Below, one piece after another: positions 21,390 through 33,944 of a stretch of 64,000 nt of DNA; position 1 is the first letter of the stretch; every line of letters starts with the position of its first letter. The position numbers and the translations under genes are program-made. Source of the stretch: Kiritimatiellia bacterium (lineage in GTDB: Bacteria; Verrucomicrobiota; Kiritimatiellia; WLWN01); NCBI GenBank assembly GCA_012103575.1, contig WLWN01000001.1, positions 1,069,792 through 1,133,791 on the forward strand. Direction: 5' to 3'. The notes under the pieces were generated by a model. That model did no database searches. It was not told the origin of the DNA and saw nothing but the letters and a program-made list of their open reading frames with translations.

Positions 21390-24119
21390 TTGTTAAAAAA
21401 TTATACGTACTTCATCATACTCAGCGTTTTGTTTTGCTTCTCTCATCATACTCTCTTAGCTGGTTTGATCGAAGATGAAGGGGAAAAGACAATTATTCAC
21501 ATACAAGTCCACGACTGGATCTTTCCCGACCCAAGTCATACCGATACCGCTATTCGGTCTGAAGCTGCTAAAGTAAAAGCATTTACAAAACAGTTCCCCC
21601 ATATTTTTGCTAAAAAATACCGTGCCCAATATAAAGAAGACCCCGAACGATATGGATCCCACAATTGGGATCATGTCGAAGTTCACGTCCATAATTTTTC
21701 CGGCCTGAAAATCGAAGGTGTTGAGTCCGATCTATTAGCCATCGCAGGAAAAGTAGCACCCGATATCATCTATGTAAATTTCAGAAAATCGGCAACCTAT
21801 ATTGAGCAAGGGTTCCTATATCCTCTAGACAAACCAGAAGATCATTACCTGACCCACATGACTCAAGAAGAAATCGATTTTCGTGTTCACCCCAAAATCT
21901 GGCCGGTCATTAAACGAAAAGGACCTGGAGGCAAAGAATATGTTTGGGCCCTGCCCTTTCGTGGCGCTTTGGGGAAAGTATTGTTTTATCGAAAAGATCT
22001 ATTCGATACTGCAGGGGTCGAATATCCGAACGAAAACTGGACATGGGACGATCTTTATGAGGCCTGCAAAAAACTAACCGATCCCGCACAAGGCATCTAT
22101 GGTATTCGATTTGTTAGCGGCAAACAAGAAGCTTATCATTGGGTCAATTTTCTTTGGGCGATAGGTGCAGATATCTTGCGTTTCAACAACACGGCAGAAA
22201 GGTGGGAAGTGGCTTTTGATACGCCTGAAGCTGCTGTGGCGCTTGACTTTTACACACAATTAAACACAGAGCCGTGGATAGATCGACATGGGCATAAACG
22301 GTATGGATATGTCTACAAAGATCCTTCTGATGGATACATCAAATGGGAACGAGGAGAAATTGCCATGAAATTTGATTATGTCTTTGAAAGACTCATATCA
22401 AAAAGTAATCCCGACCTCGTGGGAATGGTCCCGGCCCCTAAAGGCCCAACAGGCATTAGAGCCGCCGAACTCAACAGCCGAATGATGGGTCTTTTTGCCG
22501 AAATTAAAGAACCTGCTGTACGCGATGCGGCATGGGAGTTTATCCAGTTTTACGATTCAAAAGAGGCCGTAGAAGTCAAAACCCATGTCATGGTCGAAGG
22601 CGGACTCGGTCAATATGTAAACCCTAAATACCTGCGTATGTTCGGGTACCCTGAACTCATCCGTCTATTCCCAAAAGGCTGGGATAAAACCTTTGAAACC
22701 GCTATTGAAACCGGTCAACCGGAACCCTACGCAAAACATAGTAATATCGCTTATGATATTTTAACAAAGCCTTTACAAGAAACAGAGCAACTCGCTCTTC
22801 AGGATAAATTACCTAAAGAACGTGAAGCTCGACTCGCATACCTTCTGAAGCTTCTAAAGAAAACAGGAAATAAAGCCAGAGAAGAGATGCTGGAAGAATT
22901 TCCTCCTGAAGTCGTCCAAAAACGAAAATTTTCAGCGGCTGTATTTATTGCGTTAGTCCTTATTGCTTTCACCATTCTATTTCGAAAAGTAGTGAAGGAT
23001 TTTGCCCCGCACACACCAGAAGAGAATAAACCTACATGGAACCTCCGTAGACATGCATGGGCTTACACCCTTTTACTCCCGGCTATTATTACCATTGCCA
23101 TTTGGCAATACGCCCCTTTACTGCGAGGATCCATTATGGGATTTCAGGATTACAAAATAATGGGAAACTCTACCTGGGTAGGCATCCAACATTTTGGAAA
23201 TGTCTTGTGGAATCCAGATTGGTGGCTCTCTGTATGGAATTCCGCCCGCTATTGTGTATGGGTGGTGGTTTTTACCTTTTTGCCACCCGTCATATTAGCT
23301 ATCTTTCTGCAAGAAATTCCGCGAGGCACCTTACTTTTCCGAACCATTTACTACCTCCCAGCGGTAATGTGCAGCCTAGTCGTTATCTTATTATGGAAAT
23401 CTTTCTATGATCCGAGTGAACGGGGTGTTTTGAATGGAATGTTAATGTCTATTCCCGCTATTGTATTTATAGGGGTTGGTTTCTTATCTTTTTTCATAGC
23501 CTTCACGTTCTTCCGACGGCTTCACTATCATCAAGTCAATGGGGTCGCCTGGCTCAGTTTAGCTATAGGGCTTTGCGCTTGTTTTGCTTGTTTTGAGTTA
23601 GCTAAACCCATGCTAACCCAAACCGATCTCCCTTTTTTAAAAAGGCTATGGACACCCTTGTCGGATCCCTATCGATGGCTTCAAGACCCGAAAACAGCGA
23701 TGCTAGCCTGTGTCATCCCCATCGCTTGGGCTGGATTAGGACCGAGTTGCCTCATTTATCTCGCGGCTTTAAAAGGTATTTCAAATGAATTTTATGAAGC
23801 CGCAGATATGGATGGAGCGACCTTTTCGGACAAAATTCTTTTTATTGTTTTCCCCATATTAAAACCACTACTCATCATTAATTTTGTCGGTGTTTTTGTT
23901 GGTTCATGGTTTTATTCCGAAGCCAATATCTTAGCCATGACAGGTGGAGCCGCCCAAACCGAAGTCGCCGGACTTCACATTTTCTATAAGGCATTTATTT
24001 TCCATCAGTTTGGACCCGCAACAGCCATGGCTTGGATCTTAGCTTTCATGTTAATTGGATGTACCGTGTATCAATTACGCATTCTTTCACGGTTGGAGTT
24101 TCGGGGGTCGAGTTATTAG
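21390..24119 (+). CDS. Sugar ABC transporter: substrate-binding protein fused to MalF-type permease
   Basis: One chain of ~909 residues. A TTG at 21390 fits the start because it opens the signal peptide (LLKNYTYFIILSVLFCF); the ATG at 21321 would add 23 residues overlapping the divergent DUF4160 start. A family-1 solute-binding domain follows (APDIIYVNFRKSATYIEQGF, FRGALGKVLFYRKDLFD) up to about residue 500. Then come a membrane helix (FIALVLIAFTILF) and a MalF-like permease (HAWAYTLLLPAIITIAIWQY) with the EAA loop EFYEAADMDGATFSDKI. The binding domain is thus tethered to the permease. The second permease gene is downstream; no ATPase gene is nearby, so a shared MsmK/MalK-type ATPase encoded elsewhere is inferred. 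The gene is intact. Confidence 0.88.
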   Translation: MLKNYTYFIILSVLFCFSHHTLLAGLIEDEGEKTIIHIQVHDWIFPDPSHTDTAIRSEAAKVKAFTKQFPHIFAKKYRAQYKEDPERYGSHNWDHVEVHVHNFSGLKIEGVESDLLAIAGKVAPDIIYVNFRKSATYIEQGFLYPLDKPEDHYLTHMTQEEIDFRVHPKIWPVIKRKGPGGKEYVWALPFRGALGKVLFYRKDLFDTAGVEYPNENWTWDDLYEACKKLTDPAQGIYGIRFVSGKQEAYHWVNFLWAIGADILRFNNTAERWEVAFDTPEAAVALDFYTQLNTEPWIDRHGHKRYGYVYKDPSDGYIKWERGEIAMKFDYVFERLISKSNPDLVGMVPAPKGPTGIRAAELNSRMMGLFAEIKEPAVRDAAWEFIQFYDSKEAVEVKTHVMVEGGLGQYVNPKYLRMFGYPELIRLFPKGWDKTFETAIETGQPEPYAKHSNIAYDILTKPLQETEQLALQDKLPKEREARLAYLLKLLKKTGNKAREEMLEEFPPEVVQKRKFSAAVFIALVLIAFTILFRKVVKDFAPHTPEENKPTWNLRRHAWAYTLLLPAIITIAIWQYAPLLRGSIMGFQDYKIMGNSTWVGIQHFGNVLWNPDWWLSVWNSARYCVWVVVFTFLPPVILAIFLQEIPRGTLLFRTIYYLPAVMCSLVVILLWKSFYDPSERGVLNGMLMSIPAIVFIGVGFLSFFIAFTFFRRLHYHQVNGVAWLSLAIGLCACFACFELAKPMLTQTDLPFLKRLWTPLSDPYRWLQDPKTAMLACVIPIAWAGLGPSCLIYLAALKGISNEFYEAADMDGATFSDKILFIVFPILKPLLIINFVGVFVGSWFYSEANILAMTGGAAQTEVAGLHIFYKAFIFHQFGPATAMAWILAFMLIGCTVYQLRILSRLEFRGSSY

Positions 24120-24180: not shown

Positions 24181-24432
24181 ATGGATAGAGACATTAAGAC
24201 TTTTGAGGATCTTCAGTGTTGGCAACATATGGACAATGCAAAGTTCTGTAGTCATGCTAGAGCGTCATGTTGGGAAATCCTAGATCATCTAATAACCGCA
24301 CATGACGACAACATAATACCAAGCGAACTTCTCGAAAAAGGACGAGAATATATTGGAACCTCGATCAAGCTAATCAACGGCTACATGAACTATCTAAAGC
24401 GCTCGACAAACCCAAAAACCAATAAAAAATAA
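24181..24432 (+). CDS. Short four-helix-bundle protein (23S rRNA IVS-encoded type), shortened
   Basis: 83 residues: FEDLQCWQ at the start and CWEILDHLITAHDDNIIP followed by KLINGYMNYLKR match the two ends of the four-helix-bundle family best known from 23S rRNA intervening sequences. Family members are about 110-130 residues; the middle (the conserved RAAVSIPSNIAEG-like segment) is missing, so this copy probably lost part of its bundle. It sits between two transporter genes, preceded by a 7-bp-period repeat, which suggests it was inserted into the operon. Function unknown. Confidence 0.55.
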   Translation: MDRDIKTFEDLQCWQHMDNAKFCSHARASCWEILDHLITAHDDNIIPSELLEKGREYIGTSIKLINGYMNYLKRSTNPKTNKK

Positions 24433-24437
24433 CTCTA

Positions 24438-26342
24438 ATGTCCATCATATCAAAAATAGGTCGAAAAACCCTAAAAGTTAGACTCTTAATTCTAACCCTA
24501 TACGCCACACTCTTCTTAGGCTCTCTGACCATGATCTACCCGTTTCTCATTATGATCTCGGGAAGCACAAAAAGCGGTGTGGACACCAAAACATTCGATA
24601 TATTTCCTGCATTTCTAAAGAGTGACACCCTCCTTTACCAAAAACATGTTGAAGGATTATTCAACGAACGGCTTTTAGCCATGAAAAATTGCTACAACCT
24701 CGATACCCCCTCGTTTGAACACCTCCAACTTCCTAGAAACCCTTCAAAACAGCTCGTCCAAGAATGGGAACACTTTCTTATAGAAAAACCATTGCCTCCA
24801 GAAACCTACGCCTTGGGATATGTAGAAGCTCGAGTTTCTAAAACACAACCTCTGATGCTTAGAAATTTTAAAGGATATCTTACGAAGAAATACGATAAGA
24901 ATATTGAAACATTAAATCGGCGGTTAGGCACAGAATTCGTTGGTTGGAATGCCTTCTATTTGATCCCAGAAGACTTCTTACCCCGGCAAAGAAAACTATT
25001 AAACACACCTTTCTCTCAAACATTTACCCATTTTAAAGAACAACAACCCCTTAACTACCGGCATTACTTCATGCTCGAAGGGTTTTATAGGAATATGTTT
25101 CTCAAAACTCAATATACAAAAGATATTGGAACCTATAACCAAACACATGGAACCGACTACATTTCTTATGATCAAATTTACCTCTCTCGTACTCTGCCTG
25201 CAGGAACGATCAAGGAAAGAGAGGATTGGGAAAACTTTGTACGAAAAACCCTTAATCTATTATGGATTCACGTGAATAAAAAAGCGCAACCTTTCTATCA
25301 AGCCTTTCTGCAAGCAAAGTATAATACAATCGAAACGTTAAACCGAAATTATGAGACTCATTACAAATCATTTGAGAAGATTCCTCTTATTGAAAAGCTC
25401 CCTTCAGAGGGTGTGAAACTAAGTGATTGGGGGACCTTTATCGCTGGATGGCAAGATCCCGATACCCAAAAGATATATAGACCCGAACCTGAACACCTAC
25501 AAATCATTGGAACAGATTTCGCTTTTCAGGATTACTTGATGCAAAAATATACAAACCTAGAAACCCTCAACAATAAACTAGGAACCATTTACCAAAACAT
25601 TCAACAGATACGTCCGCCCCAATATGAAGCACATTATTTTTCTTTTCTCAAAAACCGAAACGCATTGAAATGGGAATTTATTGCACGAAATTACATTACC
25701 GTCATTGACTATATGGTCTTACACGGACGTGGAATTATTAACACCATCATCTATTGTGTACTCGCCGTGTTGGCAGCTTTAATTTTCAATCCGCTAGCGG
25801 CATATGCCATGAGTCGCTATTGTCTACCCAACACATATAAAATTCTACTGTTCATGTTATTGACCATGGCATTTCCTCCTATGGTCACTCAAATTCCCGT
25901 ATTTCTCATGTTAAGAGATTTTCATTTATTAAACACCTTTGCAGCCCTCATCCTTCCAGGCCTTGTACATGGCTACTCCATCTTCCTCCTCAAAGGGTTT
26001 TTTGACTCTTTACCACGTGACCTCTTTGATTCCGCCCAAATCGACGGGGCCAATGAATGGACCCTGTTCTGGCAAATTACCATGAGTTTATCAAAACCCA
26101 TTCTAGCTGTTATTGCATTACAAGCATTTAATATGGCCTATTCAAACTTCATGTTTGCCTTGCTGATTTGTCAGAACGAAAAGATGTGGACACTGATGGT
26201 TTGGCTCTATCAGCTACAACAAAGAAGTGGACAAGCCGTGATATATGCATCACTCATCATCGCCGCTATTCCTACATTTTTCATATTCCTTTTCTGTCAA
26301 AAGATCATTATGCGGGGCATTGTCGTTCCGGTCGAAAAATAA
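24438..26342 (+). CDS. MalG-type sugar ABC permease with a large periplasmic repeat domain
   Basis: 634 residues, over twice the ~280 of normal MalG. Helix 1 (about 15-42) is followed by ~390 residues predicted outside the membrane, then the remaining helices from about 430 (IINTIIYCVLAVLAALIFNP) and the EAA loop DLFDSAQIDGANEWTLFW. The inserted region holds four related units at about 151-176, 226-250, 295-317 and 371-393 with the pattern KY..IETLN...GT.Y.S...I.L, each followed by LP and W..F motifs. The pattern recalls short segments of GH42-type beta-galactosidases, though that is recollection. With the upstream fused binding protein-permease it should form one importer. The gene is intact. 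Confidence 0.82.
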   Translation: MSIISKIGRKTLKVRLLILTLYATLFLGSLTMIYPFLIMISGSTKSGVDTKTFDIFPAFLKSDTLLYQKHVEGLFNERLLAMKNCYNLDTPSFEHLQLPRNPSKQLVQEWEHFLIEKPLPPETYALGYVEARVSKTQPLMLRNFKGYLTKKYDKNIETLNRRLGTEFVGWNAFYLIPEDFLPRQRKLLNTPFSQTFTHFKEQQPLNYRHYFMLEGFYRNMFLKTQYTKDIGTYNQTHGTDYISYDQIYLSRTLPAGTIKEREDWENFVRKTLNLLWIHVNKKAQPFYQAFLQAKYNTIETLNRNYETHYKSFEKIPLIEKLPSEGVKLSDWGTFIAGWQDPDTQKIYRPEPEHLQIIGTDFAFQDYLMQKYTNLETLNNKLGTIYQNIQQIRPPQYEAHYFSFLKNRNALKWEFIARNYITVIDYMVLHGRGIINTIIYCVLAVLAALIFNPLAAYAMSRYCLPNTYKILLFMLLTMAFPPMVTQIPVFLMLRDFHLLNTFAALILPGLVHGYSIFLLKGFFDSLPRDLFDSAQIDGANEWTLFWQITMSLSKPILAVIALQAFNMAYSNFMFALLICQNEKMWTLMVWLYQLQQRSGQAVIYASLIIAAIPTFFIFLFCQKIIMRGIVVPVEK

Positions 26343-28586: not shown

Positions 28587-29562
28587 AGTAACAATACAAG
28601 TGCAAAGGTCCGCAGCATAGTTCATTCTTTGGGTATCTAACCCCCCCCAAAGGAGAACATAGAATGCCACGAACCTACGAACATTTAAACCGTTATGAAC
28701 GAGAAGTGATAGCCCAGATGCTAAAAGAAAAATATAGCTTATCTCAAATTGGCCGTCACCTGGGCCGATCCCCCTCGACTATTTGGCGCGAGTTTCGCCG
28801 TAATCGAGTCCGTGGCCGCTATTACCCAAGACCCGCAAATGGCCTGGCTCAAAGCCGATTACAGCTAGCTCGAAAGCCTCAAAAAGTGATGGGAGCTAGC
28901 AAAGAACAAGTGGAGACTCTCCTGGCGAAGTATTTGGTCTCCAGAACAGATTGAAGGTCGAAGAAAGCTAGAAGGTGACCCTCCCATCAGTCGAATGACG
29001 ATCTACCGCTACTTGTACAGTCCAAGAGGGGCTGGCTACCGAAAATACCTGCGTGGCCCCGGAAAGAAAAAACGAGCGACTCGGAAAAGCCATTCACGTA
29101 TACACAACCAAACGATGATTGACCAACGCCCCGAAGAGGGTGAAAGTCGCAAGGTGGCAGGCCATTGGGAAGGTGACACTATTCAGGGCCAAACGAGAAA
29201 AGAGGCCTGTGTAGTCACTCTAGTAGATCGAGTGACTCGATTCGCTGATTCAGGGCTCCCCTGTAAAACGGTGACTGTAGATAATGGCATGGAGTTTGCC
29301 AGCCATGCTAAACTACAGAAAAAAATAGCAACCCCCGTTTTCTTTGCTGAAGGGAGAAACCCTTGGCAAAGAGGGACCAACGAAAATACGAATGGTTTGC
29401 TTCCCCAGTTTTTCCCGAAGAAAACCGACTTTGCTGCCCACAGCTCCGCTCAGTTGAGATGGGCTGTGGAGTTACTGAATAATAGACCGAGAAAATGCTT
29501 AGAATATAGAACGCCCAAAGAAATGATGGACAGCTTCGGTTTTGCACTTGCAAGTTGAGTCT
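28587..29562 (+). mobile_element. IS30-family element 1, decayed
   Basis: The ends are inferred from an inverted similarity, CAATACAAGTGCAAA (28592) and TTTGCACTTGCAAGTTG (29541), the latter being a common right-end sequence in this IS family. It encloses a broken IS30 transposase. It lies between the upstream region of ftsZ and toxin-antitoxin debris. Confidence 0.6.
28664..29558 (+). pseudogene. IS30-family transposase 1, frameshifted and deleted
   Basis: The first frame has the HTH (YEREVIAQMLKEKYSLSQIG, RHLGRSPSTIWREFRRN). A frameshift near 28935 leads to WSPEQIEGRRK and RMTIYRYLYSPRGAGYRKYL, then the DDE core (GHWEGDTIQG, TVDNGMEFASH, GTNENTNGLLPQFFPKKTDF). About 20-25 residues are missing between VDRVTRFADSG and LPCKTVTVDNG. 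Both defects should abolish activity. Confidence 0.85.
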
Positions 29563-29727: not shown

Positions 29728-29934
29728 TCAACGCTCACACGCCTCTGCCTGATCTTTATAACCCTTCCTTGCTCCGTAATGCTCTTTATCCTCTCGAATA
29801 ACCGCTGAGGCAGGATGTTTCTCACCATATTTTACCTTTAGTTTGCGCATAAACGCATCAGGGCCCTCACAATATTTACGGCTTAATTTTTCGCGCACCT
29901 TTTGTTGGTATGCGACGGCATCAAATTTCTTTTT
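29728..29934 (-). CDS. Small antitoxin-like protein
   Basis: From ATG 29934: 68 residues starting MKKKFDAVAYQQKVREKLSR with KYCEGPDAFMRKLKVKYG, charged and helical, resembling small partners of PIN toxins in diverse bacteria. Its start overlaps the end of a PIN-like fragment by 14 bases, typical of a toxin-antitoxin operon. Its toxin is broken, so it is probably an orphan. Assignment rests on context more than on a motif. Confidence 0.5.
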   Translation of the reverse strand, partial: KKKFDAVAYQQKVREKLSRKYCEGPDAFMRKLKVKYGEKHPASAVIREDKEHYGARKGYKDQAEACER

Positions 29935-30184
29935 CATCAAGAATCTCCTTTGGTATTCTAATCTCAAGTATGGGATAACCTAATCGCAAATTTACGGAAT
30001 TAAACGCATGGATTCTCCCCAGGTTAACGATATGTCTAAAATTCCAACTCACCAAAACATCCACCCGTTCTACTGTGGCTATGGCAATATGTTGAGCATC
30101 AGCCATATGTTTAACCCTGACAACCTCTTCTTCAACATAATTGTTGGCTAATTGTTCAGCTTCTTCTGATAGAGTAACATTCTC
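29921..30184 (-). pseudogene. PIN-domain toxin, C-terminal fragment fused to RHS debris
   Basis: The segment LSEEAEQLANNYVEEEVV, then HMADAQHIAIATVERVDVLV, SWNFRHIVNL and the tail LGYPILEIRIPKEIL is the C-terminal half of a PIN ribonuclease-like toxin (conserved D in ADAQHIA, W and N in SWNF). The N-terminal half with the first catalytic Asp is absent; RHS sequence runs directly into it in frame (DDALGNIENVTLSEE). It is probably the product of recombination that removed the toxin start and the RHS end. Confidence 0.6.
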
Positions 30185-33100
30185 AATATTGCCCAAGGCA
30201 TCATCGATCTGAATGATATTGTTATTGCCATCATAGGCATAAGTACCTGATAACTTGGGAGGCATCACTATGTTCCATCTCAGTAATCGATTGGCCATCA
30301 CCCTTAGGCAGTTGAGTATTCGAATCAAAAAATTCGGTTTCTGTGCGAATACGCCGATCCAGATTGTCGTAAATATGAGCTGTTTCTGAAAGGCGGACAT
30401 TATTTCCACCACCCACCATATCTGTTAACTCACCATCGACTCGCTCTGACACACGATTATGATTACCGTCATAATGGCGAGTTGCCATATTCCCCATAGC
30501 ATCCCTTGTTTCAACGAGTCGATTGTATCCATCATACACATGATCAGTTATGTGCGGGGTCTCTTCAAGACCTTCTAATGTTCTAACTGGATTCCCGTTT
30601 TTATCGTAATCGTACTGGGTCGTAGATTGGTCAGGATCCCCTTTTACTCGAACAACTTGAAAGGCCTTGTCCCGTTCGTCATAGATTGTTCGGATATGGT
30701 TGTTCGGTTGATTCCCGTTTACCGCTTCCCCATAACGGGTCAAGGTTAGGTTCCGATTTCCATCGTATCCATATTGAGTGCTAAGCGTTAAACCTGCGTC
30801 GATTTCTTCGGTCCTGTTTGTAAGAAAATTGAGAATCTCGTATTCATAGAGGGTGGTGAAATGCGTGGTTGCCTGAAGCACACCCTGATCTTCAACGTTC
30901 TGAACATCTTCACGGATCAAATTGTTATTGGCATCATAGAAGAAATTTTTTTGGTAACGCAGTCCTGTTCCATCGATTACTTCACGAGAAACTTCACGTA
31001 CCACTTGGTCTAATTGGTTCATGATATATTGAGCATTATGTCCACGTGGATCGGTTACACGGACCGGATTGCCTACCAAATCATAGGCGTAGGTGGTGGT
31101 AAGTCCATAATTGTTAGCATCAACAATTTCTTGGTAAAGATACCCTGCTTGAGGCCCAGTATATAATATGTATATTCATCTCGACGCCGATGATTACTCC
31201 CATTATCAGGTTGAATATGAGCTGTTAGCTGGCCATATTGATTGTATTCAAAATCCTCCAAAATCGAAGGAATACGATGGACTGTCTGGGTACGGTTACC
31301 AAACGCATCATAGGCATAAACGGTTTCGTTCCCACGAGCATCGGTATGTTTGGTTACAAAATTGAATCCGCAGTTACACCCAAACGTGGTGTCATATTCA
31401 TACTGTTCTTCGATCGCTGGTTGGTCACCCGCAGGACTATGACTCCCTGGATAATGACGAATGATTCGAAGATTTCCTCTTAGATGCGGAAATGAAGTAG
31501 GATTCAAATCCCCTTCATAAAACTTTTCGGTATAATTCCCGTTAGGGTGGGTAACTTTAATGGCTAAAAAATCGCTGTTGTGTGTCCATTTTATTTCAAA
31601 GTAATTGGGATCGTTTAACCGTAGCTTTCCGGTCGGGCGATTCGCCGTATCTGTTGTCAGTTCAGTTAGGCTCGCTTTACCCGTATATTCACGATATACA
31701 ACCTTGCGATTCCCTTTGTCATAGAAATATTCAGCTACATGTCCCACACGATCATTGACAATGGCTTTGACGGTAGCATTTCCATTGTTAGGTCCAGGCT
31801 GAAGTTGTACATACTCGATATCCACAACATTCCCACCCCATATCTGACGAACCACACGATCAAATAAAAAGTCATTTGGGTTTAGAGACGTTGAATACAC
31901 ATTGATGAGATAAGGCCCATCTTCAAAGGTCGGATCATTAGGGTCATTCCGTCGGCCATCGGTGATCGCTAAGAGATTATGGTTTAACCGATCATCTGAA
32001 AACCCAGTTGTATAAGTGTAGGTCGTGGTTTTCCCATTTGGGAAATCATTCCCATTGGGTGTTCCGATTTTGTTACGGACTTTAAATCACCAAAGTTCCC
32101 GCCTGGCTCAGCGTCATTATAATATTCATAGGTTACGCTCCGACCGGAAAAATCAGTGACAGATTCGATGAATCCATCCCCGTTATACTCAAGGGAAATA
32201 GAACGATTTAAGGTATCAATGATGTTGGTAAGACGTCCCGCATTATCGTATTCAAATTGGATCACATTTCCGTTGCGGTCCGTTATGCTTGCCATTTCTC
32301 CGGTAGGATAAAAAAGACGAACGCTTTTATTGGGCTCGGTCAAGGAGTACAGGCCATTGGTTTCGAGATTTAGAGAATTAAAAAAGCCTTTAAACCCAAG
32401 GGTCCCATCTGGACGTGGACGGCATAAGTCATCGCGCGTGTTTCCATTACACACGCGAACACCGCGACCTTGGGGAATCAGATGATTGTTATAAGAAAAG
32501 TCCCACCCATTTCCCATAACCGTATTTGGACCAATTTTGGAACGGTATTTTCTGGACCAGACAAAGTCCATGCCACGCCCTTTAATGGCGAGATCAGTCA
32601 CTGAAAGCCCCTGTTCGCCTGAAAATAAATAGATAGGGTCGGTATCAGAGTTTTCGTTTTCTTTGCAATCGCATCCATTACAAGGAGGTTCTTTATCTTT
32701 GATCCGACCACTTCCCAGCGTCCTGCATCATGATTAAAACTCCATAAAGTGGTTTTTGCCCCGGGTGGCAGTGGATTGGTAGTTCCTGGTTCTGGTAAAT
32801 TAGGGAAACATACCGGCACTGGTTCATCAAAATTGGCGGCCCTATTGGTCTGAACAGTAATCACCAAAGGGAAATCCAGTCCATCTGGAAGCTGGCCTGG
32901 TATTCGATCGAGAGGTACGGGCGCAATGCCTACCTGATTTCCAAATGTTCCATCATCATATTGCAAAGAGCCAGGAGGAACCGTTATTTGTACACCCGCA
33001 AATGCTGGGTTATTAGCGATGACCGCGTCTGGGAATGAAACAATGGTTTTGTTAGATTGGCTGACCTGTTGTAAAGTGCCGGTTTGAACAAGGGGCAAAT

Positions 33101-33944
33101 AAAAGTTACCTACATTGACATCCTGGGTCGCTATAGAAGTTAAAGTTTTCCCCACGTTCGGATAATAACCCGCCAGATTATTACTGACTGTTACCCCATG
33201 TAATAGTTACCCCTTCTAGGGGGTTATTGACCCATTGATTCGTTCCATTGACTAAGACCTGTTCAGAGGCAAAAACGCGACCATTCACCATGGTGTTAGA
33301 AACAGTGGTTAGGCTTAAGCATATCTCCCACCATCGTCACACGTATTCGCGCGCTGGCAGGCAGTGGATCATCGTAAAACAAGGTAGCCTTAGTTCGACT
33401 CGATGAAACATGAATACGTCCGGTGAGTGTATTCCCTCCAAAATCGGCATGAAAAATTACCATCCTCTCCATCGGCCGGGGAACTATGAATCATGGTCAA
33501 AGGCGTATACGTATTTGGATCTTCTCCGTACTGATATTCAAGCAAGTTCGAAATTTGATCGGCGTCAAAATCTAAAAGCGCATCATTCGTGTTTAAAGGA
33601 TTTAAAGGAGGAGTACACAATTCGTAGACGTCGTCAATTCCATCGGTATCCGTATCAAGCGGATTGGTGATGCCTACACACAACACACAGTAGAAACTAA
33701 GTTGATTACTTTGAACACCCTGCAGCTGACCACTGTTCTCTTGGCCCAGGGCCATATCAATCGGGGTTGTAATATTGGTGACAACTTGTCCATGACAAAG
33801 AATGTAGTACGCGTTTGTATCTGATTCATGAACGATCTGTTGGTTTTCAAAATCAAATTGGGTAATCTCAAAACTGTGGGTTTCTGTAAGGAATACAGAA
33901 AGGAAAATTGTAAATATAAAGAGCAAATGTAGCTTACATTTCAA
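30185..33944 (-). pseudogene. Secreted RHS/YD-repeat protein, many frameshifts
   Basis: The start at 33944 gives a signal peptide (LLFIFTIFLSVFLTETHS), then calcium-binding thrombospondin-3-like repeats (NPLDTDTDGIDDVYEL, LDFDADQISNLLEYQYG) and an Ig-like region (IHSSPADGE). An N-terminal RHS shell part follows (GRGMDFVWSRKYRS, MGNGWDFSYNNHLIPQG), then about fifteen YD repeats (FEYDNAGRLTNI, YGYDGNRNLTLTRYG, QYDYDKNGNPVRTLEG). The reading frame breaks at least five times (near 33470, 33160, 32600, 32070, 31080 and 30240). RHS proteins form shells, often around a C-terminal toxin; here the end is replaced by a PIN fragment. Confidence 0.75.

Follow-up and report, generated by a model that had tools for sequence, protein, structure and literature searches.

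On the 64,000-nucleotide stretch of DNA analyzed here (the window), two neighboring permease genes lie on the forward strand (Table 1). The product of the downstream gene is confirmed as a MalG-type permease that carries an extracytoplasmic repeat insert between its transmembrane (TM) helices TM1 and TM2. BPD_transp_1 was found in Pfam for residues 470–628 (E = 8.6e-13), NCBIfam assigned the C-terminal part to the UgpE/MalG/GlcU type, and AlgM2, SugB and MalG were the solved chains matched in the PDB, with the NCBIfam and PDB matches starting at about residue 415–440. A Foldseek search with the whole model aligned the permease part with 3rlf_G (E = 6e-8). BPD_transp_1, an EAA loop and a MalG/UgpE-like sequence together place the protein among CUT1-type MalG subunits. 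Hydropathy analysis revealed six TM helices (around residues 16–34, 432–450, 469–487, 500–518, 543–561, and 601–619), and the EAA loop falls between TM4 and TM5. In the MalG-type permease family, this loop is cytoplasmic, and the extra 350–380 or so residues between TM1 and TM2, the first periplasmic loop (P1), are therefore extracytoplasmic; a cytoplasmic location of the insert is ruled out by this topology.

In the product of the upstream gene, an SBP_bac_1-type binding protein and a MalF-type subunit form one chain, such that the binding domain is covalently joined to a membrane subunit. The UgpA/MalF-like match comprises residues 784–923 of this fusion. The two extra TM helices at the position of the P2 domain of E. 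coli MalF also occur at the related loci L108, L138, and L148 and are absent from L064. The original prediction had described a MalG-type permease with an extracytoplasmic insertion between its first two helices, paired with a binding protein–permease fusion, and all of these statements are borne out.

Table 1. Features of the fused MalF gene and the MalG gene in the window (residue numbers refer to the respective protein).
Feature	Position	Strand	Basis
Binding protein–MalF fusion, 932 aa	21321..24119	+	SBP_bac_1 and UgpA/MalF-like matches
Solute-binding domain of fusion, residues 141–417	21741..22571	+	SBP_bac_1, E = 1.4e-23
Extra TM helix tying binding domain to permease, residues 540–558	22938..22994	+	Hydropathy
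MalF-type permease part of fusion, residues 575–932	23043..24116	+	Sequence, hydropathy
Two extra TM helices, residues 713–760, at position of E. coli MalF P2	23457..23600	+	Hydropathy, order relative to EAA loop
MalG-type permease subunit with P1 repeat insert, 634 aa	24438..26342	+	Pfam, NCBIfam, PDB matches
TM1, model helix 12–42	24471..24563	+	AlphaFold2 model, hydropathy (16–34)
Extracytoplasmic insert (P1), residues 46–426	24573..25715	+	Insert-only model; topology by EAA loop position
Repeat unit U0, residues ~58–130, degenerate here, clear in relatives	24609..24827	+	Unit HMM, models, alignment
Repeat unit U1, residues ~131–210	24828..25067	+	Pairwise scores, unit HMM
Repeat unit U2, residues ~211–278	25068..25271	+	Pairwise scores, unit HMM
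Repeat unit U3, residues ~279–355, top-scoring unit	25272..25502	+	Pairwise scores, unit HMM
Repeat unit U4, residues ~356–408, ends in helix leading to TM2	25503..25661	+	Pairwise scores, unit HMM
MalG membrane core, TM2–TM6, residues 430–634	25725..26339	+	Sequence and fold matches
EAA coupling loop, residues 529–553, ATPase contact site	26022..26096	+	Sequence LFDSAQIDGANEWTLFWQITMSLSK; aligns with AlgM2/SugB EAA region

The gap between the two permease genes measures 318 bp and is thus longer than the approximately 0–120 bp found in most relatives. It contains an open reading frame (ORF) for 83 amino acids (24181–24432, +) whose only match is to the latter half of the four-helix-bundle family of 23S rRNA intervening sequences; with 21.8 bits it scores under the family cut-off of 33.8 and by appearance is a truncated copy. 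Further downstream, the window contains a shortened transposase ORF (28995–29558, +, 187 aa), of which a near-identical 318-aa copy is present elsewhere in the genome (L157:2055–3011), and, on the reverse strand, a run of several partly overlapping ORFs (29921–33944) that perhaps represent fragments of a single disrupted RHS-type gene, with RHS repeats at 30231–31079. A second MalF/MalG-like pair is located at L063 of the same genome (about 1250 kb) near a glucoamylase-family gene; its MalG ORF encodes only 123 amino acids and the pair is probably broken.

Repeat units and predicted fold of the P1 insert

Within the family, mean pairwise identity amounts to 71% for the MalG core versus 32% for the insert. 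When units U1–U4 were compared with each other, the top pairs reached z values of 7–9 against shuffled sequences. A hidden Markov model (HMM) of the unit, built without the window protein, scored 38, 35, 45, and 16 bits for U1–U4 on the window permease, and across different HMM runs U4 ranged between 16 and 24 bits and U1–U3 between 35 and 45 bits. With the leave-out HMM, the highest score among 1000 shuffled inserts was 5.4 bits. Repeats arising by chance are ruled out by these two controls. The original prediction had recognized the repeats and counted four of them. The repeats are real, but four is an undercount: the insert consists of five units of about 67–81 residues with the consensus YRDYLEARYGEDIDALNRALGTDYASWNEIPL. 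The N-terminal unit U0 (detected at residues ~67–98) scores 15 bits here and 20–48 bits in many homologues, and in the model it has the same helix-helix-helix-strand pattern as the other units.

AlphaFold2 modeling with 48 sequences gave pLDDT values of 89–97 for the insert within the whole protein, and 96.0 with a pTM of 0.92 for the isolated insert, which is predicted to form five regular helix-helix-(short helix)-helix-strand units. Disorder of the insert or absence of the repeats from all homologues would have spoken against the original prediction; disorder is ruled out by the pLDDT of 96, and the repeats are present in several phyla. Across the alignment of relatives, nearly every row has residues in all five unit regions; some rows of Verrucomicrobiota type have lost parts of units, and L146 lacks an entire unit. 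Unit sizes vary between about 0.6 and 1.5 of the reference length, and the insert has three invariant and 12 nearly invariant positions.

Relationship of the repeat unit to glycosidases

A profile built from 30 units retrieved 34 distinct PDB sequences at E ≤ 1, headed by residues 158–196 of the GH42 enzyme 1kwg (E = 2.4e-10) and followed by GH50 agarases, GH167, GH14 beta-amylases, and an exo-glucosaminidase. All strong matches were TIM-barrel glycosidases. In these enzymes, GH42 beta-galactosidases among them, the counterpart of the unit is the helix directly behind the acid/base glutamate. The alignment with 1kwg revealed five extra residues, FWSQR, after GTA in the enzyme, exactly at a gap in the MalG units, and Trp182 (by count) lies within this stretch. 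In the GH42 protein BiBga42A, Trp-200 on the same element touches the sugar in the neighboring subunit (PMC10688820). As judged from these alignments, the glycosidase scaffold is retained in the MalG units and the sugar-contacting tip is absent. A single unit fits GH167 and GH42 closely (1.6–1.9 Å over 39–53 columns, Foldseek against the PDB), and an insert-only Foldseek search of the PDB retrieved no whole-domain match (best E = 0.29, TM ≤ 0.14). The corresponding fold search against viral models retrieved nothing. Measured against the PDB and this viral library, the modeled domain as a whole would therefore be without a solved counterpart.

In 38 genomes of the same class, clear tandem runs of the unit were found in MalG-family frames, and other ORFs mostly contained one match. 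The permease at 24438–26342 was the sole match of the unit profile in its own genome; a GH42 match elsewhere in this genome (L157) belongs to an unrelated glycosidase-like protein. When the window permease is searched with the Pfam profile for GH42 (PF02449), it scores 30.9 bits with a cut-off of 21, and the match is limited to profile positions 148–261 of 376, in several stretches. The same profile is matched by 43 of 48 homologous inserts at E ≤ 0.01, and a Pfam scan of these 48 inserts yielded no known carbohydrate-binding module family; apart from two stray hits, it matched nothing beyond the GH42/GH14 helix. A TIM barrel with acid/base and nucleophile glutamates is not present in the permease. 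The resemblance to GH42 beta-galactosidases noted in the original prediction is thus genuine, but its suggestion of carbohydrate handling is weakened, as the units contain neither the five-residue tryptophan stretch of GH42 nor a catalytic strand. The PF02449 cut-off alone is misleading in that it calls the permease a GH42 protein, and GH42 counts in the phyla concerned may be inflated.

Distribution, genetic environment, and co-divergence

Matches to the permease at E ≤ 1e-10 were present in 72 of 97 genomes of the same class; many were full length with 35–65% identity, and the weaker ones were ordinary MalG cores. From a scan of genome contigs we kept 80 loci, most of them from metagenome bins, which may contain wrongly assigned single contigs. 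The taxa named for these loci are Kiritimatiellota, Lentisphaerota, Verrucomicrobiota, Planctomycetota, Armatimonadota, Cloacimonadota, and, in one case, Latescibacterota. The set extends to complete chromosomes (B12222, syqfu) and to cultured strains, and the cultured strains with this architecture include Victivallis vadensis DSM 14823, Oligosphaera ethanolica, Lentisphaera marina, and Cerasicoccus. A homologue of the fused binding protein–MalF gene, mostly full length, adjoins the permease gene in 73 of the 80 loci. Five of the remaining seven loci are located at contig ends, and two (L073 and L109) are not; a fused MalF was undetected near L036 or L054–L058. No neighboring gene other than that for the fused MalF is conserved across the homologous loci. 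At loci of the same class with an ordinary MalG and a detectable MalF, the latter is unfused and gives no binding-domain score in 19 of 19 cases. The combination of a binding protein–MalF fusion with a repeat-built MalG arm was not found in the open-access literature searched.

Four further loci (L064, L065, L067, and L068) combine a fused MalF of 850–886 amino acids with a MalG containing a different P1 insert of about 290 residues, for which no Pfam or PDB match was found and which is unrelated to the repeat insert (hhalign probability 0.1%). In the MalG tree, all proteins of the repeat type group in a single clade (100/100), and those with the other insert fall inside a branch (100/94) that also contains ordinary MalG proteins. 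P1 therefore seems to have grown twice, each time together with a tethered binding protein. The two events can be called independent with confidence only as regards the MalG inserts. The two groups of fused MalF are placed apart in the MalF tree, though a joint placement is no more than borderline rejected (p-AU = 0.054), such that a single origin of the MalF fusion is not firmly rejected. A set of loci from the same class, L171–L190, had been considered as MalG proteins with even larger inserts and was left uncounted, as L173, L174, L178, and L181 proved to be MalF-MalG single-chain fusions. These loci constitute a separate family with both subunits in one chain of about 630–890 amino acids, and several of them adjoin an ORF of 554–590 amino acids with at most a weak binding-protein match.

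For 60 pairs of fused MalF and MalG, evolutionary distances of insert and binding domain correlate when both membrane cores are controlled for (partial r = 0.375, reached in 0 of 2000 permutations), and the value for MalG core and binding domain is −0.09. With a fast-evolving region of the fused MalF as an added control, partial r is 0.29–0.35 on raw, rank, and log scales. Co-divergence with the binding domain is strongest for units U1 and U2. These correlations are suggestive of a link between arm and binding domain, with the reservation that the permutation test does not fully remove shared ancestry.

A MalK-type gene adjoins the permease gene in L088, and a homologue of it does so in L076. 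The genome under study contains one unlinked gene for a MalK with OB_MalK/TOBE that is 63% identical to the L088 protein, and the ATPase serving the importer would be of the MalK type and encoded away from the pair. In some relatives the permease gene lies near genes for GH127, ROK kinase, Gfo/Idh/MocA, or GlcNAc-epimerase proteins, in Cloacimonadota near GH38 and GH20 genes, and in others near housekeeping genes. No carbohydrate-degrading genes are located next to the pair in the window. The glycosidase and sugar-related neighbors in some relatives fit a glycan as cargo; together with the family assignment they point to carbohydrate transport, presumably of an oligosaccharide.

A possible role of the arm and comparison with known systems

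Taken together, the two genes are best explained as encoding the membrane half of a carbohydrate ABC importer of the CUT1 (MalFGK2-like) type, in which the binding protein is covalently tied to the MalF subunit via the extra membrane helix and the P1 loop of MalG is expanded into a rigid arm, as predicted, of five tandem units (helix-helix-short helix-helix-strand), each built on a supersecondary element found as a single copy in glycosidases of clan GH-A and GH14. Situated beside the pore entrance, the arm would contact the tethered binding domain and hold or orient it for docking, and could thereby take over the job of the P2 loop of E. coli MalF, in place of which two extra membrane helices are predicted here. 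On leaving the binding domain, the substrate would then enter the MalF/MalG cavity, with the MalK-type ATPase supplying the energy. As the permease nearly always adjoins a binding protein–MalF fusion, holding the binding protein over the pore is the most likely function of the arm, and on balance we think it probable that the system is a CUT1-type importer whose repeat arm positions the tethered binding protein. The original prediction had left the choice between sugar handling and docking; it is docking that agrees better with the coupling to fused MalF and with co-divergence.

The arm might instead be a carbohydrate-binding module that concentrates poly- or oligosaccharides at the transporter. 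The resemblance of the unit to a glycosidase element that carries a sugar-touching tryptophan in BiBga42A is in keeping with this idea, as is the fast evolution of the insert, which a ligand-facing domain may exhibit. The units, however, lack precisely the FWSQR stretch that holds Trp182 of 1kwg, the insert matches no catalytic or known carbohydrate-binding family beyond the GH42/GH14 helix, and the pairing with fused MalF would be left unexplained, so that we consider such a module unlikely. The step from binding module to active enzyme, i.e., a degenerate GH42 protein with catalytic activity, has virtually nothing to recommend it apart from the Pfam score above the cut-off: it is refuted by the partial profile match and the missing barrel, and the fold search yielded local matches only.

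Regular repeat structures are a common build of protein-binding scaffolds, and the arm, modeled confidently as such a structure, could also dock an extracytoplasmic partner other than its own binding domain, such as a glycosidase, an outer-membrane porin, or peptidoglycan. Glycosidase genes do adjoin some relatives, but with fused MalF as the only conserved neighbor a single dedicated partner of this kind is unlikely, and we rate this explanation as rather improbable. Even less probable, in our opinion, is an ornament without specific role that is maintained by lineage inertia. It would account for the low identity of the insert, its variable unit sizes and the loss of a unit in L146, but not for retention across several phyla with invariant and nearly invariant positions or for the confidently predicted fold.

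Beyond the preferred reading of the arm as a holder of the tethered binding protein, we tentatively propose, while conceding that this may well prove incorrect, that an element of glycosidases became detached, shed the tip that contacts sugar and, through multiplication, gave rise to a new repeat fold that cradles the binding protein, and that, more generally, a binding protein tethered to MalF regularly goes along with an enlarged P1 in MalG, an outcome reached with two or more unrelated domains. The arm is a clear case of a fragment familiar from glycosidases that is reused as a structural repeat. The importer, with the binding protein on one subunit and the repeat arm on its partner, is a widespread design that occurs in several phyla, polysaccharide degraders among them. 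It makes the question testable of how a tethered, non-diffusing binding protein finds and leaves its dock.

With E. coli MalFGK2-MalE and CUT1 importers (UgpE, AlgM2, SugB), the system shares sequence and fold of the MalG core, the EAA loop, and the order of helices. It differs from them in the enlargement of P1 by about 350–380 residues and the fusion of the binding protein to MalF, and from the E. coli importer also in a MalF without a P2 domain and with two extra helices in its place. In GH42 proteins (1kwg 158–196; BiBga42A), the counterpart of each unit of the arm lies directly behind the acid/base glutamate, but unlike these enzymes the insert has no TIM barrel, no catalytic residues and no sugar-contacting tryptophan stretch, and it contains the element in five tandem copies. 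OpuA is an importer with a tethered binding domain, and a binding domain covalently tied to a membrane subunit is likewise found in GlnPQ (PMC8025302) and in the importer from the window. While GlnPQ imports amino acids as a homodimer whose binding domains are attached C-terminally by flexible linkers and which has no repeat arm, and the permeases of the GlnPQ/OpuA type are homodimeric members of amino acid/betaine families, the importer described here has two different CUT1-like subunits and is tethered through an extra TM helix at the N-terminus of MalF. A further parallel is the P2 periplasmic loop of E. coli MalF, which comprises residues 91–271 (PMC3150292). In both cases a membrane subunit of this importer type bears an extracytoplasmic domain, folded according to the model in the case of the arm, which like P2 would lie at the binding protein; unlike P2, it is located on the other subunit, in P1 of MalG, and is made of tandem helical units.
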